A DNA stretch of 44,259 nucleotides, from contig JAKSKP010000008.1 in NCBI GenBank assembly GCA_024401635.1, positions 1 to 44,259 on the forward strand. Reading direction: 5' to 3'. The DNA is from Bacteroidales bacterium. GTDB lineage: Bacteria; Bacteroidota; Bacteroidia; Bacteroidales; UBA932. The position numbers and the translations under genes were made by a program. Each line of letters begins with the position of its first letter. Position 1 is the first letter of the stretch. Below, piece after piece: positions 11,713 through 39,832 of the stretch. Below the pieces are notes generated by a model, which saw only the letters and a list, made by a program, of their open reading frames with translations, did not search any database and had not been told where the DNA came from.

Positions 11713-12861
11713 ATGAATATACTCATTATCGACGACGAGCGTTCGGTGCGCGGTTCCCTGGGAGAGATCCTCAGGGATGAAGGTTATGAAGTGGAGGTTG
11801 CCGAGAACGGTCCCGAAGGACTGGAAAAGGCTGACAAGCAGCATTTTGACGTTATTTTCTGCGATATCAAGATGCCACAGATGGACGGTACTGAAGTGCT
11901 GGACAAACTGGTGGAATCCGGCACGGACTCGGCCATCGTGATGATCTCCGGGCACGGAGACATAGAGACTGCCGTGGACTGCATAAAGAAAGGCGCGTTC
12001 GATTTCATACCCAAGCCTCTGGACCTGAACCGTACTCTCATCACGATACGCAATGCTTCCGAAAGGACAAGTCTGGTTTCCCAGACAAAAGTCCTGAAAA
12101 GGAAAGTTTACGGCGCCGATATGATAGGAAAGTCACCGGCGATAGACCATATAAAGGAAATCATAGCAAAGGTGGCTCCCACGGACGCACGCGTTCTGGT
12201 GTGCGGAGCAAACGGAACCGGCAAGGAGCTGGTTGCCAGGAATCTGTGGCAGAGCAGTCCGCGCAGCGCAATGCCATATATAGAGGTAAACTGCGCGGCC
12301 ATCCCGTCGGAACTTATCGAGAGCGAACTTTTCGGACACGAAAAGGGTTCGTTCACCTCTGCCGTGAAGCAGCACAAGGGGAAGTTCGAGCAGGCGGACG
12401 GAGGCACGCTTTTCCTTGACGAGATAGGGGACATGTCCCTGGCGGCCCAGGCAAAGGTCCTGCGTGTCCTGCAGGAGAAGAAGTTGTCCAGAGTCGGCAG
12501 CGACAAGGACATAAATGTGGACGTGCGTGTGATTGCAGCCACCAACAAGAATCTGATCGAGGAAATCGAGAAGGGTAATTTCCGTGAAGACCTATACCAC
12601 CGCCTGGCGGTAATAGTCATAAACGTACCCGCCCTGGACGAAAGGAAGGATGACATCCCCCTGCTTGTGGATTATTTCCAGAACCAGATTTCGGAAGAAT
12701 CCGGAATGTCCAGGCTGGAAGTGGACGATGAGGCAATGGCGCTTCTGACGGAAAAAAAGTGGCCCGGCAACATACGCGAGCTGCGCAATGTTGTCGAGCG
12801 ACTTATGATTCTGTCTTCCGGCCGCATCACGGCCTCCGACGTCAGAGACTACGTCCTTTAA
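11713..12861 (+). CDS. NtrC-family response regulator lacking a DNA-binding domain
   Basis: Response regulator of 382 residues. The receiver domain has the acidic pair Asp7-Asp8, phospho-acceptor Asp51 in FCDIKMPQMDG, and the FIPKPL lysine. The AAA+ domain has Walker A GANGTGKE (165-172), the sigma-54 contact loop as GSFTSA (212-217, canonical GAFTGA), Walker B GGTLFLDEIGD, and the arginine-finger region FREDLYHRLAVI. The protein stops at SSGRITASDVRDYVL, where NtrC proteins continue into a Fis-type helix-turn-helix, so it cannot bind DNA in the classical way. Its probable kinase is the NtrY-like protein at 4934-8443. It may activate sigma-54 holoenzyme from solution, as proposed for a few DNA-binding-domain-less activators. 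It converges with the transketolase C gene three bases away. Confidence 0.88.
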   Translation: MNILIIDDERSVRGSLGEILRDEGYEVEVAENGPEGLEKADKQHFDVIFCDIKMPQMDGTEVLDKLVESGTDSAIVMISGHGDIETAVDCIKKGAFDFIPKPLDLNRTLITIRNASERTSLVSQTKVLKRKVYGADMIGKSPAIDHIKEIIAKVAPTDARVLVCGANGTGKELVARNLWQSSPRSAMPYIEVNCAAIPSELIESELFGHEKGSFTSAVKQHKGKFEQADGGTLFLDEIGDMSLAAQAKVLRVLQEKKLSRVGSDKDINVDVRVIAATNKNLIEEIEKGNFREDLYHRLAVIVINVPALDERKDDIPLLVDYFQNQISEESGMSRLEVDDEAMALLTEKKWPGNIRELRNVVERLMILSSGRITASDVRDYVL

Positions 12862-23302: not shown

Positions 23303-24856
23303 ATGAAACGTACAATATTTCTGGCGGCCGCAGTGCTGGTGCTATGCTCCTGGACCAACCCTCTTACATATACAGACATCCCCGACAATGACGTCATCAG
23401 GGTAGGAGAAGACTACTATATGGTCAGCACCACGATGTACTACTGCCCGGGTGCGCCCATAATGCACTCGAACGACCTGATACATTGGGAAATCGTGAAT
23501 TACATATACGACTGCCTGGAAGACGACGACAACTACAACCTGCGCAACGGACACAACGCCTACGGCAAGGGTCAGTGGGCCACCTCCCTCAGATATGCGG
23601 ACGGGGTCTATTATGCGCTGTTCATTGCAAACGACCAGAAGGACAACAGCTACCTTTTCACCACGGATGACATAGAAAACGGAAAATGGTCACGCACGAA
23701 ACTGCCCCTGACGATGCACGACGCCTCACTGCTTTTCGACAACGACGGAAGGCTGTATTCCGTATATGGCAACGGAGACCTCTACATCGACGAACTCGAG
23801 CCCGACGGATCGGCGCTGAAGGAAGGCGGGATACACCAGCTGCTGCTCCGGACTCCATCCGAAGGATATATGCTGCGTTCCGAGGGTTCGCATTTCTACC
23901 ACATAGGCGACTATTACTACATTCTGGTTATAGACTGGCCCTGGAACGGTGTCAGGACGGAAACCTGCTGGAGATCGAAGAATCTGCTGGGCCCGTACGA
24001 AAGCCGCACGGTGCTGCAGGGGGCATTTGACGGAAGGAGGGACGGAGTGGCGCAGGGCGCCATCGTGGACACACCTGACGGGGACTGGTATGCAATAATG
24101 TTCCAGGACCACGGTGCTGTCGGCCGTATTCCCACCCTGCAGCGCGTCACCTGGGCCGACGGCTGGCCGATGATGGGGGCGGACGGGGTGCCGGAAAAAA
24201 GTTTCACCCACAGATTGCCGGAGTGCGGCACGGACTATGTATGGGCCTCGGACGAATTCGACAGTGACAAGCTGAAACTCGTATGGCAATGGAACCACAA
24301 GCCTCTCGACGGATGCTGGTCGCTTACGGACAGGCGCGGATGGCTGCGGCTTGCCACCGGTCAGACAGCCACGTCCATAATGGATGCCCGCAACACCCTC
24401 ACCCAAAGGACGGTCGGCCCTGCCTGCAGAAGCAAGGTCCTCCTGGATGCTTCAGGGCTGCGCAATGGCGACTATGCCGGCATCTGCGCTTTCCAGAGCC
24501 GGAACTGCTGCATAGGCGTGGAGGTCGATTCCCTCGGGGCCCGGTGGATTTCAGTGAAACAAACCGTTCCGGAAGGCAGGGGGAAATGGAGGACTGAGAC
24601 TGTCTACAGGAAAAAAATCAAGGCGAAAAGGGTTCAACTCGGCGTGGACTATGACTTCACCCGGGACAAGGCGGAATTCCGCTACTCCCTTGACGGTATT
24701 AAATGGACAAGCGTGAACCATACGCTTGATATGAAGTTCACGCTCGACCTGTTCACGGGCTACAGAAGCGCCCTGTTCTGTTATTCCACCATTCAGACCG
24801 GAGGATTCGCCGATTTCGGCTGGTTCCAGCAGAAGACGATTTTCTTACCCCAATAG
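23303..24856 (+). CDS. GH43 (subfamily 12-like) exo-arabinofuranosidase/xylosidase with C-terminal beta-sandwich
   Basis: Exported 517-residue enzyme with a signal peptide (TIFLAAAVLVLCSW). The five-bladed GH43 propeller covers about residues 20-310. Catalytic residues are Asp28 (DIPDNDVIRVGEDYYM), Asp140 (TMHDASLLFDNDG, with Ala where Pro is usual) and Glu194 (RSEGSHFYHIGDYYY). The long opening loop and GQWATSLRYADGVYYALF resemble GH43_12. Residues from about 325 (DGCWSLTDRRGWLRLAT) form the accessory beta-sandwich found in such enzymes. Likely activity is removal of alpha-L-arabinofuranose from arabinan or arabinoxylan fragments. It diverges from the ara operon, and its 3' end overlaps the endo-arabinanase gene by 64 bp tail to tail. 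The best upstream promoter match, TGATTTTG at 23274-23281, is one base off consensus. Confidence 0.87.
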   Translation: MKRTIFLAAAVLVLCSWTNPLTYTDIPDNDVIRVGEDYYMVSTTMYYCPGAPIMHSNDLIHWEIVNYIYDCLEDDDNYNLRNGHNAYGKGQWATSLRYADGVYYALFIANDQKDNSYLFTTDDIENGKWSRTKLPLTMHDASLLFDNDGRLYSVYGNGDLYIDELEPDGSALKEGGIHQLLLRTPSEGYMLRSEGSHFYHIGDYYYILVIDWPWNGVRTETCWRSKNLLGPYESRTVLQGAFDGRRDGVAQGAIVDTPDGDWYAIMFQDHGAVGRIPTLQRVTWADGWPMMGADGVPEKSFTHRLPECGTDYVWASDEFDSDKLKLVWQWNHKPLDGCWSLTDRRGWLRLATGQTATSIMDARNTLTQRTVGPACRSKVLLDASGLRNGDYAGICAFQSRNCCIGVEVDSLGARWISVKQTVPEGRGKWRTETVYRKKIKAKRVQLGVDYDFTRDKAEFRYSLDGIKWTSVNHTLDMKFTLDLFTGYRSALFCYSTIQTGGFADFGWFQQKTIFLPQ

Positions 24857-26739
24857 GTCTTGTGGTTTCCAAGACCTGCATAAACTATAGTGTGTGTGCG
24901 AGGAGAAGCCTCCCAATCCGTTTCCCTATACAGATACAGGGTCACGCCGTTGGCCGTAAGAATTTGCGAATCTTCGCTATAAGACCATTTGCCTCCTTTC
25001 CAGGGGCCTGAACTTATGGTATGATCCGCGGCAAGTTCCATCTCCACGGCTGTTCTCTGTTCGGCGTATTTGTAACTGAGATCTATATGTTCCCATTTTC
25101 CGACAATGTCAGATTCTTTGATGGCCACCTGCGGCACGGCACCATAGCGTTCCGGCAGAACGAGCGGCCACCCGTCGGAAGTCCACACTATGCGACGCAC
25201 GTGTCCCAGCATTACCGCATTAGGAGCGACACCCCCTGCGTCATTGGGGAACCTGGCCTGGGATGAATAGTACCAGTTGTCCTTGCCGTCATCGAACACG
25301 GCACAATGGCTTATACCTACCCATCCATTGCCTTTCATAAACTTGTAGGGATGCGTGAGGATGGGATAGGCATCCCCTCCAGCTTCGCTGACCTCGGTAC
25401 CGTACATATCCTCATACGGACCGTCCACTTTCCTGGAACGGACCACGCGGGTGCTGTACGGAACGTCCAGTCCGTCATAAGCTATAAAAAGATAGTACCA
25501 GCCGTCGCGATATATTATTTCAGGCCCTTCCGAAGCCTGCCAGCGGCTGGTGCTGAGCCTCGTATAAATGCGCTTTCCGTATGCGGCGATGTCCGATACA
25601 TTGCCCCAGGGATTCTTCAGCTCGGCTTTGACCTTTCCTGTCCCGGCATCCAGTTGGACAGCTACAAGCCCGCTGTGCCAACTGCCGTAGATGAGCCAAT
25701 GCTCCCCTTCCGGAGTGATGATGTATGACGGATCTATGGCGTTCCATCTGAAATAGCAGCTCTCCCAGGCTGTGGGGTTGACGTAGAAATTGAGCTGCTT
25801 GTCCGAAGCGTTGGTGATGACATATCCCTTGTCCACCCAGCTGCCGTTGTCCGCAGGATTGGACGTCTCCATTAGACCGATGAAGGCACGTTCGCCCCAG
25901 CTGGTTTTCTTTGCATCAATGTATCCCGGCACCACTATGCTGTAATACATCCTGTATAGACCGTTGCGTACCTTCCTCACACAGGGAGCCCAGTAGCCGA
26001 AGTCGGCCTCTTTTGCTCCGGAGTCGGGCAGGCCCATAGCCTTCCTTATCTCATTGAGTTTGGGCATCACCCAACCGGGAAGCGACGGCATCGTTCCGCC
26101 AAGATATTCCCAGTTAATGAGGTCCCTCGAACGGCGACCGTGGAAATGACCATGACCGGCGTGGGCGTTGCCGAAAGAGGCATCGGTCTGATACATGTAA
26201 TAATATCCGTCCTCAGCGAGGCAGACAGTAGGGTCGTGCACATTGGCAAGATTCCACTGGTTTCTCTTGCTCCAGTCGGCCATGGATCTGTAATCGTCCG
26301 GATATGACGGAGCCGTGTAGTCGTCCAGGCCGCTTGCAGCATTCGTCCTGAAGGTTTTCTCGGTCGAATAGTATGTCTTGTTCTCAGAACTCATCACATA
26401 TGCACGGGCATAGTATTCGGTGTCGGCTTTAAGGCCGGTGAGTGTGGCCTTGAAGTCATCCTCTTTGCAGGCCGCCACCTTGTCTGAAAGCGTAGGGCCT
26501 GATGAAGTGCTGTAACAGAAGCCTTTACGCGTAATCGCCACGCCATCGGCAGTGTAGCCTGAAGATAGTGTGACTTCTGTCGAACCTACAGCGGAAACCG
26601 CCGGAACTTCCACTACAACCTTATCTGTCGGAGGTACAGGTTTGGGGTCAGGCGTTATGTTATTATCCCCTCCGCAGGAGGTAAGGGCCAGAAACAATGC
26701 GCAGGATGCAAAATGTCTGGTAATTTCTGCTGCTTTCAT
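24793..26739 (-). CDS. GH43 endo-1,5-alpha-L-arabinanase, lipoprotein
   Basis: Surface or periplasmic lipoprotein of 648 residues with lipobox cysteine Cys22 (FLALTSCGGD). A fibronectin-III-like domain spans about 42-135 (VSAVGSTEVTLSSGYTADG; TGLKADTEYYARAYV). The GH43 propeller follows, with Asp169 (NVHDPTV), Asp336 (WNAIDPSYI) and Glu404 (ASEGPEIIYRDGWYYLF), the layout of endo-arabinanases. Residues from about 565 (DIVGKWEHIDLSYKY to TYWGKKI) form the arabinanase C-terminal beta-barrel. The last 13 residues after WGKKIV look like an unstructured extension lying inside the opposing GH43 gene. It is the enzyme partner of SusC/SusD, 84 bp after susD with a hairpin and a -7 box between. Confidence 0.9.
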   Translation of the reverse strand: MKAAEITRHFASCALFLALTSCGGDNNITPDPKPVPPTDKVVVEVPAVSAVGSTEVTLSSGYTADGVAITRKGFCYSTSSGPTLSDKVAACKEDDFKATLTGLKADTEYYARAYVMSSENKTYYSTEKTFRTNAASGLDDYTAPSYPDDYRSMADWSKRNQWNLANVHDPTVCLAEDGYYYMYQTDASFGNAHAGHGHFHGRRSRDLINWEYLGGTMPSLPGWVMPKLNEIRKAMGLPDSGAKEADFGYWAPCVRKVRNGLYRMYYSIVVPGYIDAKKTSWGERAFIGLMETSNPADNGSWVDKGYVITNASDKQLNFYVNPTAWESCYFRWNAIDPSYIITPEGEHWLIYGSWHSGLVAVQLDAGTGKVKAELKNPWGNVSDIAAYGKRIYTRLSTSRWQASEGPEIIYRDGWYYLFIAYDGLDVPYSTRVVRSRKVDGPYEDMYGTEVSEAGGDAYPILTHPYKFMKGNGWVGISHCAVFDDGKDNWYYSSQARFPNDAGGVAPNAVMLGHVRRIVWTSDGWPLVLPERYGAVPQVAIKESDIVGKWEHIDLSYKYAEQRTAVEMELAADHTISSGPWKGGKWSYSEDSQILTANGVTLYLYRETDWEASPRTHTIVYAGLGNHKTYWGKKIVFCWNQPKSANPPV

Positions 26740-26823: not shown

Positions 26824-28590
26824 CTAGAGTTCAACTACGGGACGGACCGTCCAGCCTTTGGCGCGGAATGCTTCGCCGTTGTCCGTGCTGTTGTTTGCCG
26901 AGTTGCCTGTCACGTTGGGATTGGCATTGAGAGTTCCCTGGAAAATGGGGAAATACTCATGTCCCTTGTTATAATACTTGTAGGAATAGTCACTGGCAGT
27001 ATCAATGGTGAGTTCCACTGTTGAAGGTGTTCCGTCAAGCATATAGCAACTATGCTGTTTGATCTGATCCAGACGGGCGCTGTCATAGAAGAAGCCCCAA
27101 CGGATGAGGTCTATTCCTCGTCCGTTCTCGCAGCCGAACTCCTTCGGACGTTCAACGTTGGCAATCTGCTCGAAGAGCTTGTCTGCGGTGTTGAAGTCCT
27201 CAAGTTCCAAATCGGGGAGAGCTGCACGCCGACGTACCTGATTGATCCACTCTATAGCCTGAGCCGTAGGACCGCTGATCTCGTTCTCGCACTCGGCGGC
27301 ACGAAGAAGTACATCGCTGTAACGCATCAACCTGAGGTTCACACCGCAGTGAAGGCCGGTAACGATAGTGCTGTAGATATTGTTGCGTGCATTCGTGAAT
27401 TTGGCGATTGACACGCCTCCGTTCTGAGTGTTGGCGACAGGTGTCGCAGTAATCTCATTCATATAGACAATATTGCTGCGAGGGTCACCGCCAGGATATG
27501 CTGCCGTCTTGGCTCCTGTGTAGGAACTGTATTCGGGTTCATAGGATACGATAGTCCAGTAGAGACGGGGGTCAAGTCCTCCATCGGTGCATTTTTCTGC
27601 TTTAAACAGGTTGTAGAGCCATGGAGAAACAGCCAGATCACCCCAACTGCCGAGCGCTCCGGAACCGTAGTTGGACTCTACTGCATGCCCCTGAGTAGAA
27701 TTCTTGCTTATGTTGACGGGAGTCCATTCCTCATCCGTTCCACCCATTCCATAATCCAGGAACTGAACTTCGAACAGGCTCTCCGCATTGTTCTCGTAAG
27801 CCGTGCCCTCACGGAAGTTGTCACCGTAATCTGCCATAAGCATATACTTTCCATACACACCGGAGATAATGTCCTTCAGGATCTCAAGAGCTTCGTCGAA
27901 TTTATGACGGAACATAAGGGCACGGGCATAATAACCGGCAGCGGCACCGCAGGTGGCGCGTCCTTTCGCCCATTCGCCGCCCGCATCGCGGGAAGGAAGC
28001 AGGATCATAGCCTCAACAAGGTCCTCTTCAATCTGGTCGAATACTTCGTCTTGAGTCGAGCAGGGAGCGTAGATGGTCTCAAGTGAAGAGTAGTCCTCAT
28101 AACTTGTGTAGAGGGGCACATTCTGGTAATATGTGCTGAGCTCATAGTAGGCTAGCGCCCTGAGGAAAAGGGCCTGCCCCTTGATCTTGGAATATGAGTC
28201 ATCGCTGAGGTTCGCGCCATCCACTTTCGAAAGAACGAAATTGCAGCGGTTCACAACGTGGTATGCATCACGCCACATCCACAGACCACCTATATCTATG
28301 GTTGCAGGGGCGTTGAGGTTATCATATTCGAGGTACCATATCTGAGAAGAGTTCCATACCTCGTCCCCGCGTACCGCGTCCATAGTGTAACCGACACGCG
28401 AATAGGTACCCTCCAGACGGATTCTGTTGTAGCAGGCAATAACGGCCTCGTTGAGATCAGCCTCCGTATTTCCGAAGTCGTATGTCGTCTGGTTGTTGGG
28501 ATTAACGACATCCAGCTGTTTGTCGCAAGAGACTGTCAGGCAGAGTGCCGCAAATATTGCCAGAGCTATTGATATTTTTTTCATAATCAT
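26824..28590 (-). CDS. SusD-like outer-membrane glycan-binding lipoprotein
   Basis: Starch-utilization-system D homologue of 588 residues that caps the SusC barrel and binds the oligosaccharide. The lipoprotein signal is FAALCLTVSCDKQLDVV, followed by the SusD-type N-terminus (TEADLNEAVIACYNRIRL) and TPR-like helices (KGQALFLRALAYYELSTYYQ; GRATCGAAAGYYARALMFRH). The C-terminal region has RYSDVLLRAAECENEI and EWINQVRRRAALPD, the classic SusD/RagB stretch, then GRGIDLIRWGFF and EYFPIFQGTLNANPN. It starts 20 bp after the susC stop. Two ATGs (28590 and 28584) are possible starts. The glycan is inferred from neighbours to be arabinan or arabinose-rich pectin. Confidence 0.94.
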   Translation of the reverse strand: MIMKKISIALAIFAALCLTVSCDKQLDVVNPNNQTTYDFGNTEADLNEAVIACYNRIRLEGTYSRVGYTMDAVRGDEVWNSSQIWYLEYDNLNAPATIDIGGLWMWRDAYHVVNRCNFVLSKVDGANLSDDSYSKIKGQALFLRALAYYELSTYYQNVPLYTSYEDYSSLETIYAPCSTQDEVFDQIEEDLVEAMILLPSRDAGGEWAKGRATCGAAAGYYARALMFRHKFDEALEILKDIISGVYGKYMLMADYGDNFREGTAYENNAESLFEVQFLDYGMGGTDEEWTPVNISKNSTQGHAVESNYGSGALGSWGDLAVSPWLYNLFKAEKCTDGGLDPRLYWTIVSYEPEYSSYTGAKTAAYPGGDPRSNIVYMNEITATPVANTQNGGVSIAKFTNARNNIYSTIVTGLHCGVNLRLMRYSDVLLRAAECENEISGPTAQAIEWINQVRRRAALPDLELEDFNTADKLFEQIANVERPKEFGCENGRGIDLIRWGFFYDSARLDQIKQHSCYMLDGTPSTVELTIDTASDYSYKYYNKGHEYFPIFQGTLNANPNVTGNSANNSTDNGEAFRAKGWTVRPVVEL

Positions 28591-28610: not shown

Positions 28611-31600
28611 TTAGAATGACAGTTTCGCTCCGATCATAAAGGTCATTGGTGCGGGATATGAGCAGTAGTTGAAGCCCGGAGTGAACGTGCCGCCGGCGTA
28701 GTCGAGGTTATATCCTCTGTATTTGCTTATTGTGGCAACATTCTGTGCTGACAGGTAAAGACGTACATTGTTCAGATATCCGCCGAATAGCTTGTCATTG
28801 AAGTTGTATCCCAACTCGATGTTTGCAATCTTCCAATATGCTCCGTTCTGAAGGAAGCGCTCAGAGAAATAGTCATTGGTAACTGAGCCGTTGGCTTTGT
28901 AGTAAACCGCCGGAACACTTGTGTTCGTGTTTTCGGGAGTCCAGGCGTTGAGCAGGTCGGCGCTCTTGTTGGTCACTCCGTATGAACTGTGCAGAATCCT
29001 GTCAACCTCATCGAGGACCTTGTGGCCTGCCGCTCCGTAAGTCGAAACATAGAGATCGAAGCCCTTGTATTCGAGACGGAAGCTGAGACCGTACTGAACT
29101 TTCGGCATTCCGCTGCCGATGATGGTCTGGTCAGCGTCGGTTATCTGGCCATCGTTGTTCACATCGACATACCTTACGTCACCGGGTTGTGCACCCTGCT
29201 GCTCAACGTGTTTGCCGGCAGCGTTGGTGTTGTTGTCGATTTCCGCCTGACTCTGGAAGATTCCATCGCAAACCCAGCCGTAGAAACGGCCGACTTCGCT
29301 GCCCACTTCCGTTTTGCAGTAACCGTCAATCCTTGAAGTCTCGCCCATTCCCAGGGAAGTCACCTTGTTCTTGGGAAGGGTGATGTTTGCAGAGATATCA
29401 TATTTGAGTTCCCTGTCATAATTATGGTATGAGGCGGCAAGCTCAAAGCCTGTGTTGACCATCGTGGCGGCGTTCATTGTAACAGATTCATTGGTGGCAC
29501 CGGCCTCAGCGGGAACGGGAACACTGTAGAGAAGGTCCTCTGACTTAGCCTGATACCAGTCAGCGTTGATCTCAAGCTTTCCACCGAACATCGCATAGTC
29601 GATACCTATGTCGAGAGTCTTTTTCTTCTCCCACTTGATGGCAGTGTTAACGTAATCGGAAATTGCCGAACCGGTCACCTTTTCACCCGCAAAGCTGTAA
29701 GTGTAGTTGCCGCGGGCCATAGTGGACATATATTGGTAGTCACCGATGTTCTCATTGCCGAGAATACCGTAGCTGGCACGGACTTTCAGAAGACTTACAA
29801 GGTTGCGGTCAACGTTGAAGAATTTCTCCTTGTCGATCCTCCAACCTGCGGAGAATGAAGGGAACCAGCCCCAGTGGTTGGCAGAAGAAAGGCGGCTGGA
29901 ACCGTCACGACGCACAGTGGCCTGAAGGAGATATCTTCCGTCGAAATCATAGTTGATACGGCCGATGTATGAAGTAAGCACATGCTCGCTTTCGAAGCTG
30001 CCTGCATCCCTGGTGGTACCGTTGCTTACCTGAAGGTAATAAGGCTCGGGAAGGTTAACTCCCTTTCCTGTAAGAGTGTGATAATCCTCACGCTCGAACG
30101 TATAACCGACAACAGCATTGATATGGCTGCGGCCGAACTTTCCGTCGTAAGTCAAGTAGTTCTCTATCAGAGCATCGCTGTAGCTGCGGTATCCCTCTGA
30201 TACGTTCTCGTTGTTCTTGTCCAGATAGTTGGTGTTGCTTTGGATGAATGCTGACACGAAAGTGAAGTCCTTGGCATATGTGCGGCTGTAAGAAAGGTTG
30301 AGGTTGTATGAGAGCTTGTGGTTATCATTGTGGTAACCGAACATTCCCAACAGGTCAACGCTGGCAGAGCCTGTCGCTACGATACGGTCGACAGTGGACT
30401 TCCTCTTAAGAAGGTTGTTTGTAAGCAGGGGGTTGGTCATACGGATGTCACCATGGATTTTGTCGTAGTACGTACCATATCCGTATGAATCATATGAATA
30501 CTCGGATGCAGCGGCGATCTTGTCATCGAGGCACCAGGTGCTCTCGTCGTAGGCAAGTATGCTGGGAGGCATAATAAGCGCCGATGCCATAACGGGATAT
30601 TGCTGGCCGTAAAGACCCTGCACATATTCGTTGGCGTTGCTCAAGGATAAATTGTTCTGTGAGCTGTGAGAATATACGATACCCGTACGAAGCTTGATGA
30701 ACTTTATATCCATCGTATTGTTCACGCGGGCAGTGAAACGGTCGAAGTCGGGACCTGAACCGCGAAGCGTACCCCTCTGGCTGAAGTAGTCGAGACCGAC
30801 GTTGTAGGTGCTCTTCTCTCCACCGCCGGAAAGGTTGATGTTGTGATTGTGACGAATACCGGTCTTGAACATCGCCTTGAACCAGTCGGTGTTGTACTTG
30901 GCGGGGTCAAGATACAAGGGGCTCTCCGTATCATATCCGGCAGGGAAGTCAAGCGCATTGTTGTCGTAAGCCATACGGGTGTATTTGCCGAAGTCTTCGG
31001 CATTCATCACGTTGTATACACCTTTTCTGATCTGGTCGACACCGAAATATCCGGAGTAGTCGATTTTGATCTTCTGGTTCTTCTTACCGCTCTTGGTGGT
31101 GATGATGATCACACCGTTGGCTGCACGTGAACCGTAGATGGCGGCTGCGGATGCATCCTTGAGTACCTGGATGGTCTCGATGTCGTTGGGAGAGAAGTCG
31201 CGGATTGTGGTTCCCATAGGAACACCGTCCACAACGTAGAGAGGGCTGGTGTCACCGAAGCTGCCCAAACCGCGGATCCTTACCGCGGGGTCGGCACCGG
31301 GCTGACCGTCAGAAGTAATCTGCACACCGGCAACCTTTCCTTCAAGCATTGTGGAAATGTTGCTGTTTGACACCTTCTTCATCTCGTCTGCATCGACGAT
31401 TGCCACGGAACCGGTGAGGTCGACCTTCTTCTGTGAACCATAGCCGATGACTACAGTCTGCTCGAGAAGTATGTTTTCAGTCTTGATGGTAAGAGTACCG
31501 AGGTCTGCACGCCCGAGAACTGCAACTTCAAGGGTTTCATAGCCGAGGGCGGAAACCTGGAGCGTAGCATCTGTTGGAACGCTGAGTGTGAAATTTCCAT

Positions 31601-31811
31601 CGATATCAGTGGTGGTTCCCTGTGTCGTGCCTTTGACGAGGACGCCGGCACCCATTGCCGGCTCTCCGAAATCATCAATGACCTTTCCAGAGACTGTCAC
31701 ATTGTCTGCCGGCTGAGCCTTAGCCGCCGCAGAAGCATCGCTTGCGTTTGCCGCCAACGGAGCCGTTGCCATGAGGCAGAAGAGTAATAATGTCGTAAAT
31801 GTATGTTTCAT
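28611..31811 (-). CDS. SusC-like TonB-dependent transporter
   Basis: Outer-membrane importer of 1066 residues. After a signal peptide (LLLFCLMATAPLAANA) comes the carboxypeptidase-regulatory-like domain (VSGKVIDDFGEPAMGAGVLV to VSALGYETLEVAVLG). The TonB box region follows, then the plug (GYGSQKKVDLTGSVAIVDAD; MLEGKVAGVQITSDGQPGAD; PLYVVDGVPMG; ASAAAIYGSRAANGVIIITT). The remainder is the 22-strand barrel, ending in the aromatic signal PMTFMIGAKLSF. It works with SusD immediately downstream. The binding-protein gene is 16 bp upstream, so susC is second in its operon. Confidence 0.95.
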   Translation of the reverse strand: MKHTFTTLLLFCLMATAPLAANASDASAAAKAQPADNVTVSGKVIDDFGEPAMGAGVLVKGTTQGTTTDIDGNFTLSVPTDATLQVSALGYETLEVAVLGRADLGTLTIKTENILLEQTVVIGYGSQKKVDLTGSVAIVDADEMKKVSNSNISTMLEGKVAGVQITSDGQPGADPAVRIRGLGSFGDTSPLYVVDGVPMGTTIRDFSPNDIETIQVLKDASAAAIYGSRAANGVIIITTKSGKKNQKIKIDYSGYFGVDQIRKGVYNVMNAEDFGKYTRMAYDNNALDFPAGYDTESPLYLDPAKYNTDWFKAMFKTGIRHNHNINLSGGGEKSTYNVGLDYFSQRGTLRGSGPDFDRFTARVNNTMDIKFIKLRTGIVYSHSSQNNLSLSNANEYVQGLYGQQYPVMASALIMPPSILAYDESTWCLDDKIAAASEYSYDSYGYGTYYDKIHGDIRMTNPLLTNNLLKRKSTVDRIVATGSASVDLLGMFGYHNDNHKLSYNLNLSYSRTYAKDFTFVSAFIQSNTNYLDKNNENVSEGYRSYSDALIENYLTYDGKFGRSHINAVVGYTFEREDYHTLTGKGVNLPEPYYLQVSNGTTRDAGSFESEHVLTSYIGRINYDFDGRYLLQATVRRDGSSRLSSANHWGWFPSFSAGWRIDKEKFFNVDRNLVSLLKVRASYGILGNENIGDYQYMSTMARGNYTYSFAGEKVTGSAISDYVNTAIKWEKKKTLDIGIDYAMFGGKLEINADWYQAKSEDLLYSVPVPAEAGATNESVTMNAATMVNTGFELAASYHNYDRELKYDISANITLPKNKVTSLGMGETSRIDGYCKTEVGSEVGRFYGWVCDGIFQSQAEIDNNTNAAGKHVEQQGAQPGDVRYVDVNNDGQITDADQTIIGSGMPKVQYGLSFRLEYKGFDLYVSTYGAAGHKVLDEVDRILHSSYGVTNKSADLLNAWTPENTNTSVPAVYYKANGSVTNDYFSERFLQNGAYWKIANIELGYNFNDKLFGGYLNNVRLYLSAQNVATISKYRGYNLDYAGGTFTPGFNYCSYPAPMTFMIGAKLSF

Positions 31812-31827
31812 AACGATTCTCTTTTAA

Positions 31828-33585
31828 TTAGTCAAAGACAAGATACGAAGCCTCCGTAACGATGGCGAACGTAAGGTCATCACTGTTGACGGGGATATTG
31901 TCATAATGCTGGAAATGCTCTTCGCCACTTGCATAAACCACGAAATAGCGGATGCTGGCAGTGCCGTCGCCGTTGTTGGTGACAGTGATGGCAACCTGCG
32001 AACCGTTGATGTTGTCCTGGAAATAAGTTCCGTCAAAAATCCAGTCTGCAGTCTTGAGGCAAGGCTCCCAGCCGTCACCCCAACCATAGTTATCCATACG
32101 GACAACAACATATTCCCTGTTGGCAGTTGCATAATCCGCATTCCTGAGAACGACGCACGGACTATGCCAGTTACCCGCATTGTCGGAACCCACGTACATG
32201 CTTACGGTCTGACTCGTCAAAGGAGCTACGGACCAGTCGTTGCTGGTACCTTCAGGTACCCACCAGGGTGTTGTGCAATCGGTGAACCCTACCTGCTTGG
32301 GGTCCTGGGCGGCCTGTGCGCTCTTCGCGATAGTGAGGTCTCCGGTGGCCGTAATCTCATTTCCTGATGCGGAAGTGTAGGTCACGGTAAAGACGTCCTC
32401 ATATACGCCGGCAACGCAGTCATAAACTACCTTGTCATCCTTGAATGCCACGACAACCTGAGCAGGAGTAAGGATGCCGGTTGTACCGTCAGCATAGGTA
32501 GCTGTTACCTTGACGGAGTTGGGAGAAAGAGTGAGCTTCTTAGCACCACCTATGTAATAGTAAGCAGCTGCGGAAGCTTCGATGCTGACTACGGGGTTGG
32601 TAACTTCAAGAGTGTAGTAACCGTTCACCATATTTCCCGCATTGCCCTGCTTTGTCAGGTTGTAGGAGTAAACTATGGTCTTCTTGCCGACAGTTGAGAG
32701 GTCAGGCACGTTGAACACCATCTTGGCGGTATCGGCCACGGCTGTGGTTCCGTCGGTGAAGGTTACCGTAGCGATACCGTCGCCCCAGAAATCAGTTTCG
32801 CCAAGTTCAAGCGAAGCAGGGGTTCCGGTAACAGTGATGGAAACGGGCTGCTCGTCGGGAATCTCGGCAATCTGAGACTTCGTCCTGAAAGCGGACAGCA
32901 TCTCGAAATGGCTCTGATCTGTGGTGATATTGGCATAAATGTCAGCAGCTGCAGGCACCTTCTGATTGTAAGTCTCCGTAATGGAGAGACCCCATACGTA
33001 GTTGGTGGCAGTGGCAGTGACGTATGCATATCCGGCGCTGGCGTGATCGACCTCAATCGCGACATGGGCACTCTCCATAAACTCCTTGAATTCATCCCAA
33101 TCAGCGAGTTTGCCTTCTTCAAAATAGTCTATCTGCAGCAACGCACTCGAATAATCGGCGTTGCCCCATCCGTACGCATCGGATCTGATGACGAAAAGCT
33201 CCGCATAGGCGGGGTCATCATCGGTGCTGGTACCGGGAGTGGTTGCCATTACAAGGTTCCAATTGCTCCAGTTGTTGATTTTTGAAGTGTGGTTGATGAA
33301 TTCAAAGTGCAGCAATTGGCCTGAAGGAACCTGGAAGAACTGGCTGTGGTCCTCCCACCAGGCAGAAGAGCAGTCTTCCGCCCCGACAATGGTCTTCGTG
33401 ATGTCCACGACAACCGTGTCTCCATGATCTTTCTTGCGCTTCTCGGCAGCGATGGAGTCAATTTTCGACTGAAGCCAGGCGGGCTCGTTGACGGTATATC
33501 TCTCCATCTTTGAGCAGCCGGCCGAGGTCAAATATATGACTCCCAGGCAGAAAAGCACGCCGAACATAAATAATGGTTTTTTCAT
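31828..33585 (-). CDS. Surface glycan-binding-type lipoprotein with duplicated terminal modules
   Basis: Envelope lipoprotein of 585 residues (lipobox cysteine Cys24 in YLTSAGCSKMERY), the first gene of the susC operon. Module A (about 66-235) and module B (about 432-585) appear to be diverged copies. They share DC-[ST]-x-x-WW, then [FV]V-[IV]R-x-D-x-YGWG, and a late Y-x-NI motif (YANITTD / YDNIPVN). Between them are two bacterial Ig-like domains (about 247-330 and 331-421) of the TVTFTDGTTAV / KVTATYADGTTGI type. The many Trp and Tyr suggest carbohydrate-binding platforms joined by a stalk. No catalytic motif is seen. Its role is inferred to be SusE/SGBP-like, although such genes usually follow susD. 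I cannot name the module family. Confidence 0.75.
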   Translation of the reverse strand: MKKPLFMFGVLFCLGVIYLTSAGCSKMERYTVNEPAWLQSKIDSIAAEKRKKDHGDTVVVDITKTIVGAEDCSSAWWEDHSQFFQVPSGQLLHFEFINHTSKINNWSNWNLVMATTPGTSTDDDPAYAELFVIRSDAYGWGNADYSSALLQIDYFEEGKLADWDEFKEFMESAHVAIEVDHASAGYAYVTATATNYVWGLSITETYNQKVPAAADIYANITTDQSHFEMLSAFRTKSQIAEIPDEQPVSITVTGTPASLELGETDFWGDGIATVTFTDGTTAVADTAKMVFNVPDLSTVGKKTIVYSYNLTKQGNAGNMVNGYYTLEVTNPVVSIEASAAAYYYIGGAKKLTLSPNSVKVTATYADGTTGILTPAQVVVAFKDDKVVYDCVAGVYEDVFTVTYTSASGNEITATGDLTIAKSAQAAQDPKQVGFTDCTTPWWVPEGTSNDWSVAPLTSQTVSMYVGSDNAGNWHSPCVVLRNADYATANREYVVVRMDNYGWGDGWEPCLKTADWIFDGTYFQDNINGSQVAITVTNNGDGTASIRYFVVYASGEEHFQHYDNIPVNSDDLTFAIVTEASYLVFD

Positions 33586-33711: not shown

Positions 33712-36711
33712 CTATTGTTTTAGGAATAACGTGGGAGAAGTCCCATACTCTCGAGTAAAGCATCTTGTGAAATACTTTGGATCGTTGAATCCGACTTCGT
33801 AGGCGATTTCCGAGACGTTCATATTCCTGCTCTCCTTATTATTGATGAGAATCTCGCGCGCTATCGAGAGCCTATAGGTTCTGATGAACTGACCTATGGA
33901 CTGGTTCAAAGACGATCGCAATCTCTTATTCAACAATGTCTTGCTCATCCCCATAACCTTGCAGAAGCCATCCACGTCAAGACCGGGATTCTTGTAGTTG
34001 ATGCGAATGGCCTCCAACAGCTTCTCAACAAACTTATCATCCCTCCGGATATCCGCCTGGCGCGCCTCCTGTGCGAACAGTATCCTGTGGCCGGCAAGTT
34101 CCTCATTCTGTCTGGAGAGTATCCTGTTCTGGCTGGCAAGTTCCTCCGCCTTCAACTCAAGCAGTTTCTTCTGTTCCGAGATCTCCCTGGTCCTCTCATT
34201 CACGGTATTCTGCAGATCCTCCCTCTGTTTTGACAAATGCTTTATTCTCAATTTTACAAACAGAACAATTGCAGCGGCAATAAGGAAAATCATAATAAGA
34301 AAGAACCACCAGGATCTGTAGAAATATCTGGCAACGACTATTTTGACCTCATTTGTCCCCAGAACCTCGGATTCGGAGTTCATCGCCTTTATCTGGAGGG
34401 TGTAGCTGCCCGCCGGGAGAGTTGCAAAGTTTATAAATCGCCTGTTCTGTCTGAGCGTAATCCACTCATCATCGAACCCCTTGAGCCGATATGCGCAGAT
34501 AGCGGGAGAAGCCGCCCCATAGTCCAACAGCGAGAATTCAAAACCAATGGATTTGTCTTTTTGGTGCAGCCTGATTTCATCTGCGCAGGAAATATCCTTG
34601 TCAATCGGTTTGTCTCCGGCAAAAATATCATTCTCGCCTATCGTCAGACGGGTGAACTTGAGATTGAACTGCCGCTCGTTACGGCATTCCCGCTGGGGAG
34701 TCACGACAGTCAGTCCGTTCACCTGACCGAAATACAGGCTGCCATCGGGAAGTTTGGCCGAAGCATTCCAATAAAACTGAGCGGAAGACAGCCCGTGTTC
34801 GGGATAGTAATTGGTAAAAGCAAGAGTCTTCGGATTGAAACGGGACAAGCCGTATTCGGTCGATATCCATATTCTCCCGTATTTGTCATCCAGAATGCCT
34901 TTGGCCATATCATTCGCAAGGCCGTCCTCCGTAGAGAATCTGGTGAAGTGCATATTGCCATCCGCATCCTCGCTGTCCAGCCTGTATATTCCATTGCCAT
35001 TCGTCCCAACCCACAAAGTACCGTCGGATGTTATCGACACACAGTTGACTCTGTCCGAATACCCTTCGCCCGGACTGATTACCCTGGCGCTGAACATATC
35101 CTTGCCTGCAATGCTTCCTTTCCTGTGCAGGTCGAAAACATAAAGACCCCGATGGCATCCTATCCACATCCTGTCCCTGCTGTCCACGCACGCACCTATA
35201 CTTCCGAAAGGCTGGTCTTCCAGCACTGGAGAAATCGTGCCGGAAGCCAGGTCATAGACGAATATGCCTACATTGGCTCCTATCCACATATAGTTGTTGA
35301 CAGGATCATATTTCAAAGCCCCGATATAGCTTATCGGCCAATCCGAAGCCGTTATATTCCTGGTGAAACGCAACCCGTCCAAAGAAAGTATACTGATGCC
35401 ACCACCCCAGGTTCCAACCCACATATTGCCGTCGCCATCACACTCCAGTGCACTTACCGAATTATGAGCAAGACTGCTGTTCCTTGTAGTAAAACCGTGG
35501 AATTCACCGGAACCGGGATATGTCCAACACAACCCTGCTTCAACGCTTCCTGTCCATACCCGCCCTTTACTGTCTGCCATTATCGAATTGACAGGATTCG
35601 GGGCAATGGACGTAGGAGAGTCCTTGTCGTATGCATAATTCCTGACCGACAGCAACTTGGGGCTTACGACAACTATGCCTGCACTTTCCGTCCCTATCCA
35701 TATCTGGCTGTCAAAGCAGTTTATGCAGTTTATGAAATCACTGCTGAGAGTCAAACCGTTGCTGCCAATCCTGCCGGAGTTGATTCTTTCGAAACAGTCA
35801 TTGAACGGGTCATACACATTGAGCCCTTTGAGGGACGAGACGAGGAGCTGGCCGTCGGCGGTCAGACAGAGAGCTGTCAAAAAGTTCTGTGAAAGAGACC
35901 TGTCATCCGATGCAGAATATTGATAGTGTCTGATTTTCCCGCTGGCCATATCGAATCGGACCAATCCGTTTTCAGTGGAAATCCACGCTTCATTGTCTTT
36001 CAGAAGGCAGTCTGACACATATGCATTGGCTTCTATCGGCAAATCGTTTATCACATTAGCGGCCATCAGGGCTCCATCGCTCTCAAACAATCTGATTATG
36101 CTGGAGCCGTAACTGGTCCAGACCGTGCCGTCACCTTCCACGTCACGCAGAAAATTGTCCTGAAGTCCAATTCTGGGATCAGAGAAGGTCAGGATTTCAT
36201 CAAGGTCTCCTTCCTTTGAGAAAGAAACCCTGTATATGTCGGACCCGGACTTGACCCAAACATTTCCATTTGAATCCGTCGTAATGAATCGAATGGTCCT
36301 GCCCTGAAGTTGCTGAAGTTCAGATACCAGTAGCGTACAGCTGTGAAGCGTCTCCAAATCCAGGATATGCAGACCGCTTATGGACGTTACCCACAGTCTC
36401 CGGAAATGGTCCTCCGTAATACAGGTCACAAAACTGCTCAACTGGGGATCTGTATAGGAAGTGAACGTGAGAAAATCCGTCCCATCGAAACGCGAAAGCC
36501 CCCCTCCGGACGAGGCTATCCATACAAATCCAAAACTGTCTTTATATATATAATCAACAAAATTCGCCGGCAATCCGTCCGACATAGAAATATAGTTCAC
36601 AAGATACTTATCATTGAACGCCGACTGTGCTGAGCTATTCTGTGAAAGTAACGGAAGCAATCCCGCTATAAGCAGGGATGCCAGTTTCGAAAATCCACCA
36701 TCTATTTTCAT
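33712..36711 (-). CDS. Kinase-less HTCS-like regulator: Reg_prop propeller, Y_Y_Y, TM, coiled coil, AraC domain
   Basis: Inner-membrane regulator of 999 residues. A signal-like helix (LASLLIAGLLPLLSQNSSAQ) precedes two Reg_prop beta-propellers with repeated units such as DSFGFVWIASSGGGLSRFDG and DSRDRMWIGCHRGLYVFDL. A Y_Y_Y domain follows (LPAGSYTLQIKAMNSES), then one membrane helix (about 802-821) and a 55-60 residue coiled coil. The last 110 residues are an AraC-type helix-turn-helix (SLNQSIGQFIRTYRLSIARE; NVSEIAYEVGFNDPKYFTRC). HTCS proteins have HisKA, HATPase and receiver domains between membrane and AraC; here there are fewer than 70 residues and none of these. The start at 36711 has GAGGA five bases upstream and sits below a promoter; an open frame reaches 36828 but crosses that promoter. 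It probably senses arabinan oligosaccharides. Confidence 0.88.
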   Translation of the reverse strand: MKIDGGFSKLASLLIAGLLPLLSQNSSAQSAFNDKYLVNYISMSDGLPANFVDYIYKDSFGFVWIASSGGGLSRFDGTDFLTFTSYTDPQLSSFVTCITEDHFRRLWVTSISGLHILDLETLHSCTLLVSELQQLQGRTIRFITTDSNGNVWVKSGSDIYRVSFSKEGDLDEILTFSDPRIGLQDNFLRDVEGDGTVWTSYGSSIIRLFESDGALMAANVINDLPIEANAYVSDCLLKDNEAWISTENGLVRFDMASGKIRHYQYSASDDRSLSQNFLTALCLTADGQLLVSSLKGLNVYDPFNDCFERINSGRIGSNGLTLSSDFINCINCFDSQIWIGTESAGIVVVSPKLLSVRNYAYDKDSPTSIAPNPVNSIMADSKGRVWTGSVEAGLCWTYPGSGEFHGFTTRNSSLAHNSVSALECDGDGNMWVGTWGGGISILSLDGLRFTRNITASDWPISYIGALKYDPVNNYMWIGANVGIFVYDLASGTISPVLEDQPFGSIGACVDSRDRMWIGCHRGLYVFDLHRKGSIAGKDMFSARVISPGEGYSDRVNCVSITSDGTLWVGTNGNGIYRLDSEDADGNMHFTRFSTEDGLANDMAKGILDDKYGRIWISTEYGLSRFNPKTLAFTNYYPEHGLSSAQFYWNASAKLPDGSLYFGQVNGLTVVTPQRECRNERQFNLKFTRLTIGENDIFAGDKPIDKDISCADEIRLHQKDKSIGFEFSLLDYGAASPAICAYRLKGFDDEWITLRQNRRFINFATLPAGSYTLQIKAMNSESEVLGTNEVKIVVARYFYRSWWFFLIMIFLIAAAIVLFVKLRIKHLSKQREDLQNTVNERTREISEQKKLLELKAEELASQNRILSRQNEELAGHRILFAQEARQADIRRDDKFVEKLLEAIRINYKNPGLDVDGFCKVMGMSKTLLNKRLRSSLNQSIGQFIRTYRLSIAREILINNKESRNMNVSEIAYEVGFNDPKYFTRCFTREYGTSPTLFLKQ

Positions 36712-36728
36712 TTGTCCTCTATTTCTTG

Positions 36729-36760
36729 CAAACATAGTTATTAATAGGCTCATCGACAAG
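36729..36760 (-). promoter_or_regulatory. Promoter of the HTCS-like regulator (CTTG - N20 - TATGTTTG)
   Basis: On the minus strand CTTG (36760-36757) is followed after 20 bases by TATGTTTG (36736-36729), a full -33/-7 match. The predicted start near 36725 leaves a leader of about 14 bases before the ATG at 36711. This supports that start over upstream ones. Confidence 0.6.
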
Positions 36761-36782
36761 TATGTATAAGATTTTTTCTTAG

Positions 36783-36790
36783 TATATTTG
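36783..36790 (+). promoter_or_regulatory. -7 box (TATATTTG) of the divergent GH51 gene
   Basis: Plus-strand TAnnTTTG match, predicted start near 36794, about 19 bases before the GH51 ATG. No TTG lies at -33 distance; the intergenic 36737-36782 may hold the regulator's binding site. Confidence 0.5.
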
Positions 36791-36812
36791 TTTTTGAGAA
36801 AAAAAGAAAGAT

Positions 36813-38786
36813 ATGACAGCAAAAGCAATCCTTACCACTATCGCAACGATTTTGGCTTTTTCAGCCGGCGCACAGGTAAACCAGTTCGACATCAACCTCA
36901 AGAAAAAAGGTGCTCCGATTCAGCCTACAATGTATGGAATCTTCTTCGAGGACATCAATTTTGCAGCAGACGGAGGCCTTTATGCCGAACTTGTCAAGAA
37001 CCGCTCATTCGAGTTTCCCCAAGACCACCTTCAGGGATGGAAAGCCTTCGGCAAAGTAGATGTGCTGAGTGACGGGCCGTTTGAGAGAAACCCCCACTAT
37101 GTTCGCCTTACTGAGCCGGGACACCCTCACAAATGGACCGGTCTGGACAATGAAGGTTTCTTCGGAATAGGCATCAAGAAAGGCGAGAAGTACCGTTTTT
37201 CGGTATGGGCCCGCGTACCGGGGGACAAAAGCGAGACACTCCGCATAGAGATTGTCAACACCGCCTCTATGGGTGAAGAGCATTTCTATACACAGGGCCG
37301 CATCACAGTGAGCTCCACAGAATGGAAAAAATATCAGATTACCATAACCGCCAAGGAAACCAACCCGAAGGCCGTGCTGCGAGTTTTCCTTGAAAGCCGA
37401 GGAGGCAGCGTTGACCTCGAACATCTGTCACTATTCCCGGTTGACACCTGGAATGGACACGAGAACGGGCTTCGCAAAGATCTCGCCCAGGCGCTCTACG
37501 ACCTGCATCCCGGAGTGTTCCGCTTCCCCGGAGGATGTATAGTGGAAGGAACCGACCTGAACACGAGATACAACTGGAAAAATTCAGTCGGCCCCGTTGA
37601 GAACCGTCCTCTGAACGAAAACCGTTGGGAATACACCTTCCCTCACAGATTTTATCCAGATTATTTCCAGAGCTACGGACTCGGATTCTACGAGTTCTTC
37701 CAGCTTTCCGAGGAAATAGGCGCAGAACCCCTTCCCATTGTCAGCTGCGGCCTGGCCTGCCAGTTCCAGAACGAAAACGAGGATGCTCACGTTCCCGTGA
37801 ACGAGCTCCAGCCTTATATTCAGGACGCTCTTGACCTCATAGAATTCGCCAACGGGGGCACCGACACAAAGTGGGGAGGCCTCCGCGCATCAATGGGTCA
37901 TCCCGAATCTTTCAATCTGAAGTTCATAGGCGTGGGCAACGAGCAGTGGGGCAGCCTGTACCCTGAAAGGCTCAAACCGTTCATTGATGCCATACGCGCC
38001 AAACATCCTGAAATAAAAATCGTCGGGTCTTCAGGTCCCAACTCGGAAGGAGATCAGTTCGATTACCTGTGGCCTGAAATGAAGAAACTCGGTGCCGACC
38101 TTGTGGACGAGCATTTCTATCGTCCCTACGACTGGTTCCTTGCCCAGGGCGCACGATATGACAGTTATGACAGAAAGGGTCCGAAAGTGTTTGCTGGAGA
38201 ATACGCCTGCCACGCCAAAGGCAAGAAATGGAATCATTTCTACGCGTCCCTGCTCGAGGCCGCCTTCATGACCACAATAGAACGCAACGCCGACATAGTG
38301 CATATGGCCACATACGCCCCTCTTTTCGCCCACGTTGAAGGCTGGCAGTGGAGACCCGACCTCATCTGGTATGACAATCTCAACTCATTCCGTACCGTCA
38401 GCTGGCACGTACAACAGCTCTATGGACAGTACAAGGGACAGAATGCGCTGACGCTCACGATGAACGGATCCAACGTAACCGGCGCTGAAGGGCAGAACGG
38501 CCTGTTTGCAAGTGCAGTTGCCGACGGAGACAAGGTTTACGTCAAAGTGATAAATACGTCTGACAAATCACAGGACATAATCCTCAATTTCAAAGGACTC
38601 AAGAAGAAAGAAAGCGTAAAAGGCGTAGAGCGCATCAAACTCGTGTCAGACAAACTCTATGAGGACAATTCTCTGGCCCGGCCTGAAAACATCGCGCCTT
38701 CAAGCGAAAGTTTTGAGAAAGAAGGCCCGACAATGTCAACCACCATCGAGCCATACTGCTTCTCAATCTTCGTTATCCAGCGTTAG
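36813..38786 (+). CDS. GH51 alpha-L-arabinofuranosidase with inserted carbohydrate-binding-like domain
   Basis: Exported 657-residue enzyme (signal ILTTIATILAFSAGAQ). The N-terminal strand IQPTMYGIFFEDINFAADGGLYAEL is typical of the long GH51 type. Residues about 75-215 form a CBM4/9-like beta-sandwich (GWKAFGKVDVLSDGPFERNP to VDLEHLSLFP). The catalytic barrel follows, with acid/base Glu377 (GVGNEQWGSLYP) and nucleophile Glu463 (KVFAGEYACHAKG), then a C-terminal beta domain. Long GH51 enzymes of this form accompany arabinan PULs in Bacteroides. It is divergent from the HTCS-like gene and converges with the next GH43, overlapping by four bases. Confidence 0.93.
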   Translation: MTAKAILTTIATILAFSAGAQVNQFDINLKKKGAPIQPTMYGIFFEDINFAADGGLYAELVKNRSFEFPQDHLQGWKAFGKVDVLSDGPFERNPHYVRLTEPGHPHKWTGLDNEGFFGIGIKKGEKYRFSVWARVPGDKSETLRIEIVNTASMGEEHFYTQGRITVSSTEWKKYQITITAKETNPKAVLRVFLESRGGSVDLEHLSLFPVDTWNGHENGLRKDLAQALYDLHPGVFRFPGGCIVEGTDLNTRYNWKNSVGPVENRPLNENRWEYTFPHRFYPDYFQSYGLGFYEFFQLSEEIGAEPLPIVSCGLACQFQNENEDAHVPVNELQPYIQDALDLIEFANGGTDTKWGGLRASMGHPESFNLKFIGVGNEQWGSLYPERLKPFIDAIRAKHPEIKIVGSSGPNSEGDQFDYLWPEMKKLGADLVDEHFYRPYDWFLAQGARYDSYDRKGPKVFAGEYACHAKGKKWNHFYASLLEAAFMTTIERNADIVHMATYAPLFAHVEGWQWRPDLIWYDNLNSFRTVSWHVQQLYGQYKGQNALTLTMNGSNVTGAEGQNGLFASAVADGDKVYVKVINTSDKSQDIILNFKGLKKKESVKGVERIKLVSDKLYEDNSLARPENIAPSSESFEKEGPTMSTTIEPYCFSIFVIQR

Positions 38787-39832
38787 AGATTAACGACGGG
38801 CCAACCGTCCTCTGACCATTCGACTTTGCGCACAAGCAACTTGGACGCAAAGTCGAAATCTTTATCATAAGCGTGGCAATAGATGTAATCGCCATCGTCG
38901 GTGCTGATAACCGCGCAGTGACCCACACCGGCATATTGCCTGTTCGGTTGGAGAACCGGAGTACCGCCGCTTTCCATCATAGGGGCCCCGTTCTTGTCAT
39001 AATAAGGACCATATACGCATTTGGAGCGGCCCACAACGGTATTGTAAGTGCTCAAAGGCCCGCGACAACAAAGGTCGAAGGACACAAACAAGTAATAGTA
39101 TTCTCCGTGCCTGAATATGAACGGAGCCTCCACAGCACCGTTCCCTGCATCGAAATCCTTGCCTCTGGGATCAGGCGAGACCGCCTTGTCGCTTGACACC
39201 GTATCCGGGGCCGTCCCCTCAGGTCTGCGGGCCACGGGATACCATACCTGCGGCTCGGCAATACGGGTCAGAGTCTTGTCCAGCTTGAACATCTTGATAC
39301 CGCGCCAGAAAGAGCCGAACACCATCCAGCCATCACCGTTCTCGTCAATTATCACGTTAGGGTCAATAGCGTTCCATTCGTCACGGCCGGGAATGGATTC
39401 CACAACCATTCCTCTGTCCTCCCACCTGAAGTCGGGAGACTCCGGATTCAAGGTCTTGTTGACAGACACACCTATCGCAGACCTGTTCTTCCCGAAACCG
39501 GAGCAAGAGTAGTAAAGATACCACAGGCCATCGTGGTAAAATATGTCAGGGGCCCAGGGAAAACCTTTGAATCCCTTATCACTGGCCCACTGCGGCAACT
39601 CCATGAAAACATTCCTCTCTATGCGCCACTTTTTCTGGTCCGTAGAAGAAAGCACCCGCATTCCGGTCATAAACATATAGTACCTGCCGTCACAGAAAGC
39701 GACTACAGGGTCGTGGCAATCCGGATTCTCAACGACTTTCCCGATGAATCGTTCGAATCTGTCGTGATGCTGGGCGCAAAGGTTGGAGCAGACAAGTATG
39801 CCTGCAGCAAAAAAAACAACGAATCTTCGCAT
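38783..39832 (-). CDS. GH43 (subfamily 5-like) arabinan-active enzyme
   Basis: Exported 349-residue single-domain GH43 (signal VVFFAAGILVCSNLCAQ). Catalytic residues are Asp41 (NPDCHDPVVAFCDGRYYMF), Asp157 (WNAIDPNVIIDENGDGW) and Glu235 (NGAVEAPFIFRHGEYYYLF). FPWAPDIFYHDGLWYLYYSC and YNTVVGRSKCVYGPY are typical of the arabinanase branch. There is a short insertion around 203-230 before the acid Glu. It should cut alpha-1,5-linked arabinan or its oligomers in the periplasm. It begins 14 bp after the lepA stop on the same strand and may be read through from lepA; no promoter box of its own was found. Confidence 0.88.
   Translation of the reverse strand: MRRFVVFFAAGILVCSNLCAQHHDRFERFIGKVVENPDCHDPVVAFCDGRYYMFMTGMRVLSSTDQKKWRIERNVFMELPQWASDKGFKGFPWAPDIFYHDGLWYLYYSCSGFGKNRSAIGVSVNKTLNPESPDFRWEDRGMVVESIPGRDEWNAIDPNVIIDENGDGWMVFGSFWRGIKMFKLDKTLTRIAEPQVWYPVARRPEGTAPDTVSSDKAVSPDPRGKDFDAGNGAVEAPFIFRHGEYYYLFVSFDLCCRGPLSTYNTVVGRSKCVYGPYYDKNGAPMMESGGTPVLQPNRQYAGVGHCAVISTDDGDYIYCHAYDKDFDFASKLLVRKVEWSEDGWPVVNL

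Follow-up and report, generated by a model that had tools for sequence, protein, structure and literature searches.

A membrane regulator of an arabinan-type PUL that seems to derive from an HTCS by excision of kinase and receiver

A kinase-free, HTCS-derived regulator of 999 amino acid residues is encoded at 33712..36711 (reverse strand) of the window, i.e., the whole 44,259-nt stretch of Bacteroidales DNA that was analyzed, as seen from the ORF, a Pfam scan and the purifying selection acting on five pairs of close relatives. It seems to descend from an arabinan-type HTCS that underwent excision of both domains, kinase and receiver, and the protein probably works as a phosphate-free switch made of sensor, coil and DNA-binding domain (DBD). 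The earlier note had described a one-component regulator that is tethered to the membrane and serves an arabinan-type PUL, and this description is well supported: the protein hides no cryptic kinase or receiver, and GH51, GH43, SusC/D and L-arabinose isomerase genes lie nearby. What the note could not see is that the regulator, judged by sequence comparison, derives from an HTCS by excision. Three traces, as far as sequences can tell, fit a working kinase-free switch: an inherited coil that changes length in heptad steps, decayed receiver contacts, and a different remnant in a sister group.

The ORF may start with an ATG at 36711 (999 aa) or with an upstream TTG at 36828 (1038 aa). Evidence for the ATG comes from GGACAAATG and from a TATGTTTGC box lying 16 nt ahead of it, which is of a type that we take to be a promoter box, TAnnTTTG. 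The same start-region layout was observed in five of nine relatives inspected, two of these nine stretches having missed the start. According to the Pfam scan (positions in the 1038-aa numbering; 39 is subtracted for the 999-aa form), the protein contains Reg_prop (E 1e-32), Y_Y_Y (779-820) and HTH_18 (956-1037, E 6e-17), and the standard HTCS periplasmic half proposed earlier was thus recovered. HisKA, HATPase_c and Response_reg gave no Pfam match in the regulator at E ≤ 1; as positive controls, all three were found in two parent-type HTCSs at 1e-10 to 1e-25 with the same Pfam library. The earlier note was therefore correct about the missing kinase and receiver, as it was about the ORF coordinates, and the profile search that it had proposed for a cryptic HisKA or HATPase revealed none at this threshold. 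Compared with HTCSs, the Reg_prop/Y_Y_Y sensor and the AraC-type C-terminal DBD are present, whereas HisKA/HATPase_c and the receiver are absent.

The chain begins with a signal-peptide-like N terminus (residues 1-30, 36622..36711, by sequence inspection), and the Reg_prop propellers lie between this and the Y_Y_Y domain (34369..34494). A single transmembrane helix (residues 801-821, 34249..34311, from hydropathy and sequence) is followed by a signalling-helix-type coiled coil (about residues 822-883, 34063..34248, with NERT at 838-841), the end of which is uncertain and overlaps the joint. This coil-DBD joint (34042..34092, by alignment) varies in length among relatives and is the site of HisKA, HATPase and receiver in the parent HTCS. 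The AraC-type DBD begins at residue 892 (33715..34038), and the estimate of a 55-60 residue coil in the earlier note was about right. The nearest solved sensor by sequence is 4a2l (E 5e-78), the structure of BT4663, for which a scissor-like movement has been reported, as cited in PMC8534201.

The regulator gene is separated by a divergent promoter region (36712..36812, from the sequence) from a GH51 alpha-L-arabinofuranosidase gene (36813..38786, forward strand, Pfam), a divergent neighbor that is conserved in the window's subclade. The reverse strand carries, with Pfam assignments, a SusC-like TonB receptor (28611..31811), a SusD-like protein (26824..28590), the PUL GH43 enzyme (24793..26739) and, beyond the GH51 gene, a further GH43 enzyme (38783..39832), a homologue of which is found in 15 of the 36 other kinase-free loci. 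The SusE/F-position surface protein (31828..33585, reverse strand), lying upstream of SusC and not downstream of SusD, is without a Pfam family above the cut-off and has a homologue in 18 of these 36 loci. An arabinose-use cluster adjoins the PUL (2396-23189), with L-arabinose isomerase, FGGY kinase, transketolase, an SSF symporter, aldose epimerase and a second GH51; three GH43 genes were counted by Pfam in the window. SusC homologues were found in 32 of the 36 other loci and GH51 homologues in 18; these 18 all come from the subclade of the window, which has 19 members besides the window protein. The second subclade (n = 16) has different SusC/D genes, and when three of its loci were scanned for neighbors, GH43 was found in two and an arabinofuranosidase B-type enzyme in one. 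Near one second-subclade regulator lies a gene for a Reg_prop protein that also contains His_kinase (PF06580; L048:12174-14786). Given this setting in the window and the neighbors in the loci of its relatives, an arabinose-containing ligand is likely for the regulator.

Two of the best HTCS matches align with the window protein in two blocks (1038-aa numbering): the first starts in the sensor and reaches residue 915-929, the second begins at residue 925-929 and covers the remainder, and the kinase and receiver of the HTCSs fall between them. In the alignment, the coil of parent-type HTCSs continues into the kinase-free proteins up to the joint. A tree of the sensor only placed all 37 kinase-free rows in one clade inside the HTCSs (SH-aLRT 95), and a divergent kinase-free row, L141, among distant HTCSs. 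Later, careful sensor trees gave 100/98 for the window's (genus) type and 98/95 for both kinase-free types together. In the sensor tree, L182, a protein from the family of genome G625, was nested inside the window's type, a placement that suggests transfer between families. When stretches around ten close HTCSs were fetched, a GH51 homologue was found in six and a SusC homologue in five, so the excision probably occurred in an arabinan regulator.

The sister type, represented by four proteins, is without the coil and matches the last helix of the receiver; in the window's type, the coil is kept and no receiver remnant is visible. With a receiver-helix profile (averaged BLOSUM scores, 10 HTCS tails), p values of 0.045, 0.007, 0.0007 and 0.0003 were obtained for the sister-type proteins, values which come from a third score, chosen after earlier ones failed, and from four non-independent proteins, two of them 91% identical. 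The same profile gave p 0.14 to 0.88 for 13 coil controls and p 0.63 for L182. An earlier log-odds receiver profile was not significant (G625, p 0.06) and gave p 0.049 for a coil control, L117, and the tails were badly anchored in the first pairwise test. A remnant of another kind, the last helix of the receiver, appears to survive in the sister group. The linkers of the two types have no visible coil in common, although the sensor tree joins the types; in an earlier tree with one sister-type member, the join was supported at 82/89. By AU test, placement of the sister member with one HTCS was not rejected (p 0.27), and three HTCSs between the two types were rejected (p 0.02). The pattern would follow either from two excisions or from one with different later trimming.

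Counting the window protein, full-length members of its type number 36 and come from 31 of the 300 genus genomes sampled: the genus search, with at most two candidates scored per genome, yielded 35 that run from sensor to DBD, window included, and another search added one (G003:C64). Partial copies were found at contig ends in two more genus genomes (G148 and G025). The 35 other members are 31-46% identical to the window protein, and one kinase-free relative (L121:7181-11137) has an open frame of 1318 aa with an N terminus about 300 residues longer. In a sample of the order (393 genomes, E ≤ 1e-65, two candidates scored), the matches listed included one close kinase-free protein outside the genus, in G625, and a divergent one in G495 (27% identity). 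The family of G625 (201 genomes sampled, E ≤ 1e-120) provided five kinase-free proteins, four in one genus and one in another. For five close pairs from the kinase-free clade, dN/dS was 0.057-0.195 overall and 0.006-0.087 in the DBD. Because full-length members are this numerous, dN/dS is low and the clade is supported and nested among HTCSs, the regulator, on these data, is not a broken gene. A deletion did take place, but the idea that kinase loss inactivated the gene and left a dead remnant deserves almost no credence, being contradicted by the selection on the DBD and by the 35 other full-length, diverged genus members.

A survey of the order along the lines that the earlier note proposed found that the layout is not unique: at least 28 contiguous rows in at least 19 of 295 genomes have a kinase-free Y_Y_Y-TM-AraC layout, a count to which the window protein and two further proteins from the query alignment contribute, with at most eight candidates scored per genome and other domains in the rows not scanned. 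L035-L042 and L141 are divergent proteins of this layout, mostly with short linkers and seemingly of other origin.

A separate kinase, or a partner HTCS acting through a mixed dimer, might drive the regulator, and the window does encode a kinase (4934-8443) and a sigma-54 response regulator (11713-12861). This is highly improbable, since the regulator is without a receiver to phosphorylate and the kinase, 25 kb away, is without a propeller match. Among the matches listed from the 300 genus genomes, HTCSs above the cut-off as possible partners were only four, of a distant type (27-29% identity), a count from at most two candidates scored per genome, so that others may hide where two kinase-free genes exist. 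Two HisKA matches were found in the assembly (84.9% complete), namely an ordinary HTCS and the window kinase. The latter (reverse strand) is a histidine kinase of 1169 aa without a Pfam propeller match, and together with the forward-strand response regulator it forms a pair probably unrelated to the regulator.

The ERT signature marks the signalling helix (S-helix), an element proposed to keep the domains that follow it inactive as long as there is no signal (PMC1592074). RT of this signature is present in 20/20 members of the window's subclade, and full ERT in 15/20, window included, by a motif pattern that misread L114 and L117, both of which carry ERT in their sequences. Throughout the second subclade (16/16) the ERT arginine is replaced, giving RQT in 15 and RQM in one. 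From the membrane anchor to QNE, the coil measures 72 residues in 33 of 36 members, 65 in one and 58 in two. In ten close HTCSs the distance from the anchor to the H-box region is 86 once, 93 twice, 100 six times and 114 once, i.e., in steps of 7; five rows of the series carry a one-residue anchor correction, and L136 was taken from its RT-to-H-box length. The heptad series does not extend to four rows of distant HTCSs, in which the linker is short (55). The 3.5-residue periodicity is modest, with a z of 2.0 for the window protein and values between 1.0 and 3.3 for five relatives. A dependence of signalling on linker length in heptads has been reviewed for photoreceptor kinases (PMC6798134). 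With its ERT-type signature and heptad pattern, the window coil resembles a signalling helix, and it is inherited from the parent HTCS.

In the 32 of 36 rows that could be parsed, 18-26 residues separate QNE from the first phenylalanine of the DBD, without heptad steps. Transfer through the coil, as the earlier note had proposed, is supported by the ERT-type signature and the heptad-only length changes; the other part of that proposal, rotation of a rigid rod into the DNA, is disfavored by this variable stretch after QNE. Since the joint varies in length without heptad steps, a changed pairing or spacing of two loosely hung DBDs would fit better.

Regulated proteolysis occurs in other membrane regulators. 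Here, ligand binding would expose the protein to a protease and free the coil and DBD from the membrane, for which the membrane tether and the variable, possibly unstructured joint would be suited. This explanation is quite improbable, however: a coil length fixed in heptads would be needless for free release, and no protease family was found among the 20 window ORFs scanned, a subset of all its ORFs.

In HTCSs, the DBDs are repressed by the receiver through an aspartate (D) and a lysine (K) conserved at 95 and 96%, respectively (Gao, Wu and Stock, PMC11253607). Both positions were located by the D-to-K spacing of 39 in the numbering of that paper. D is present in 26 of 30 HTCSs versus 14 of 37 kinase-free proteins (Fisher 5e-5, kinship ignored) and K in 30 of 30 versus 22 of 37 (Fisher 4e-5, kinship likewise ignored), the HTCS set including all 20 same-genus HTCSs. 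The replacements are mostly D to E and K to R among relatives that are not independent, and the tree requires at least 10 changes for D and at least 6 for K. In the window protein, an arginine in the first recognition helix (33919..33933, by alignment and PMC11253607) replaces the receiver-contacting lysine. Among 12 DBD columns conserved in ≥85% of HTCSs, only D, K and one leucine drop by more than 0.05; the leucine is M or I in 37/37 kinase-free proteins, a change that receiver contact does not explain. In the sister type, D is lost in 4/4 (N, N, G, N) and K in 2/4, one of the four being also among the 37. L182 retains both residues, and nine divergent kinase-free proteins, which belong to neither of these two types, keep D in 8/9 and K in 5/9; D is thus not generally lost wherever the layout is kinase-free. 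The decay of D and K is what release from the receiver would predict.

Such release could also leave a constitutive DNA binder, in which the unrestrained DBDs, paired by the coil, never leave the DNA and the protein either activates steadily or represses, with a largely vestigial sensor. The receiver does repress DNA binding in HTCSs, AraC DBDs that are forced to pair are cited as activators of transcription (PMC11253607), and a coil that holds two such DBDs together on a joint of variable length could be always active. The kinase-free proteins, however, keep many invariant sensor residues (28 aligned members), the coil register and a low whole-protein dN/dS, unexpected for an idle sensor, and constitutive binding is unlikely.

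In the sensor-coil-DBD switch that we favor, the parts left after excision would be the sensor, membrane helix, signalling helix and AraC DBD, and the coil would hold the protein as a constitutive dimer. A periplasmic arabino-oligosaccharide may close the sensor dimer scissor-wise, as proposed for BT4663, and this closure would shift the signalling helix between two packings. The shift would alter the spacing of the two DBDs, which hang flexibly, so that they either gain or lose the ability to bind the PUL promoters; phosphate would play no part.

The regulator shares its sensor, membrane helix, AraC DBD and PUL setting with HTCSs of Bacteroidetes PULs, such as BT0366 (arabinan) and BT4663, but is without their HisKA, HATPase_c and receiver, and its receiver-contact residues have decayed. 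Membrane one-component regulators (TTRs) are a recognised class, with Y_Y_Y in 7.7% (PMC10269533), and are likewise single polypeptides with one membrane helix that bind DNA from the membrane. The window protein joins a membrane helix (by hydropathy) and a DBD in one chain without a phosphorelay and is predicted to control transcription from the membrane; it differs from TTRs in its propeller/Y_Y_Y sensor, signalling helix and traceable HTCS descent. Membrane one-component regulators are thus already known, and the present protein is an HTCS-derived variant. The Neisseria Rsp, a chimera of PilS receptor and PilR DBD, is also a two-component system collapsed to sensor and DBD without a relay (PMC10269533); the available main text of that paper makes no mention of AraC or HTH_18. 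SusR-like regulators are PUL membrane regulators with a periplasmic sensor and cytoplasmic DBD too, set apart by a SusR DBD described as unlike known ones (PMC3878776), whereas the DBD here is AraC-type and HTCS-derived. As described in PMC1592074, the S-helix is a coil that connects sensor and output and bears an ERT-type signature, as here, but it usually lies upstream of enzymes, with links to HTH domains at low frequency, in contrast to the HTH output of the regulator. Searches of an open-access library, to which most subscription papers do not belong, revealed no description of kinase-free HTCS derivatives.

HTCSs are a main means by which Bacteroidetes choose a glycan. The quiet DBDs of the permanently dimeric HTCS have been explained through the receiver (PMC11253607). 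An HTCS derivative that occurs in nature, is under selection and has neither kinase nor receiver tests this model, because DNA binding could then be gated by nothing but the movement of the sensor. Being small and independent of phosphate, such a glycan sensor is also of use for engineering. We give slightly less than an even chance to the wider reading that the HTCS phosphorelay is dispensable, the AraC domains reading sensor movement directly via the signalling helix, with kinase and receiver removed twice, or once with different trimming, and both lineages kept. If this is true, the kinase-free proteins would be the minimal glycan switch hidden in every HTCS.
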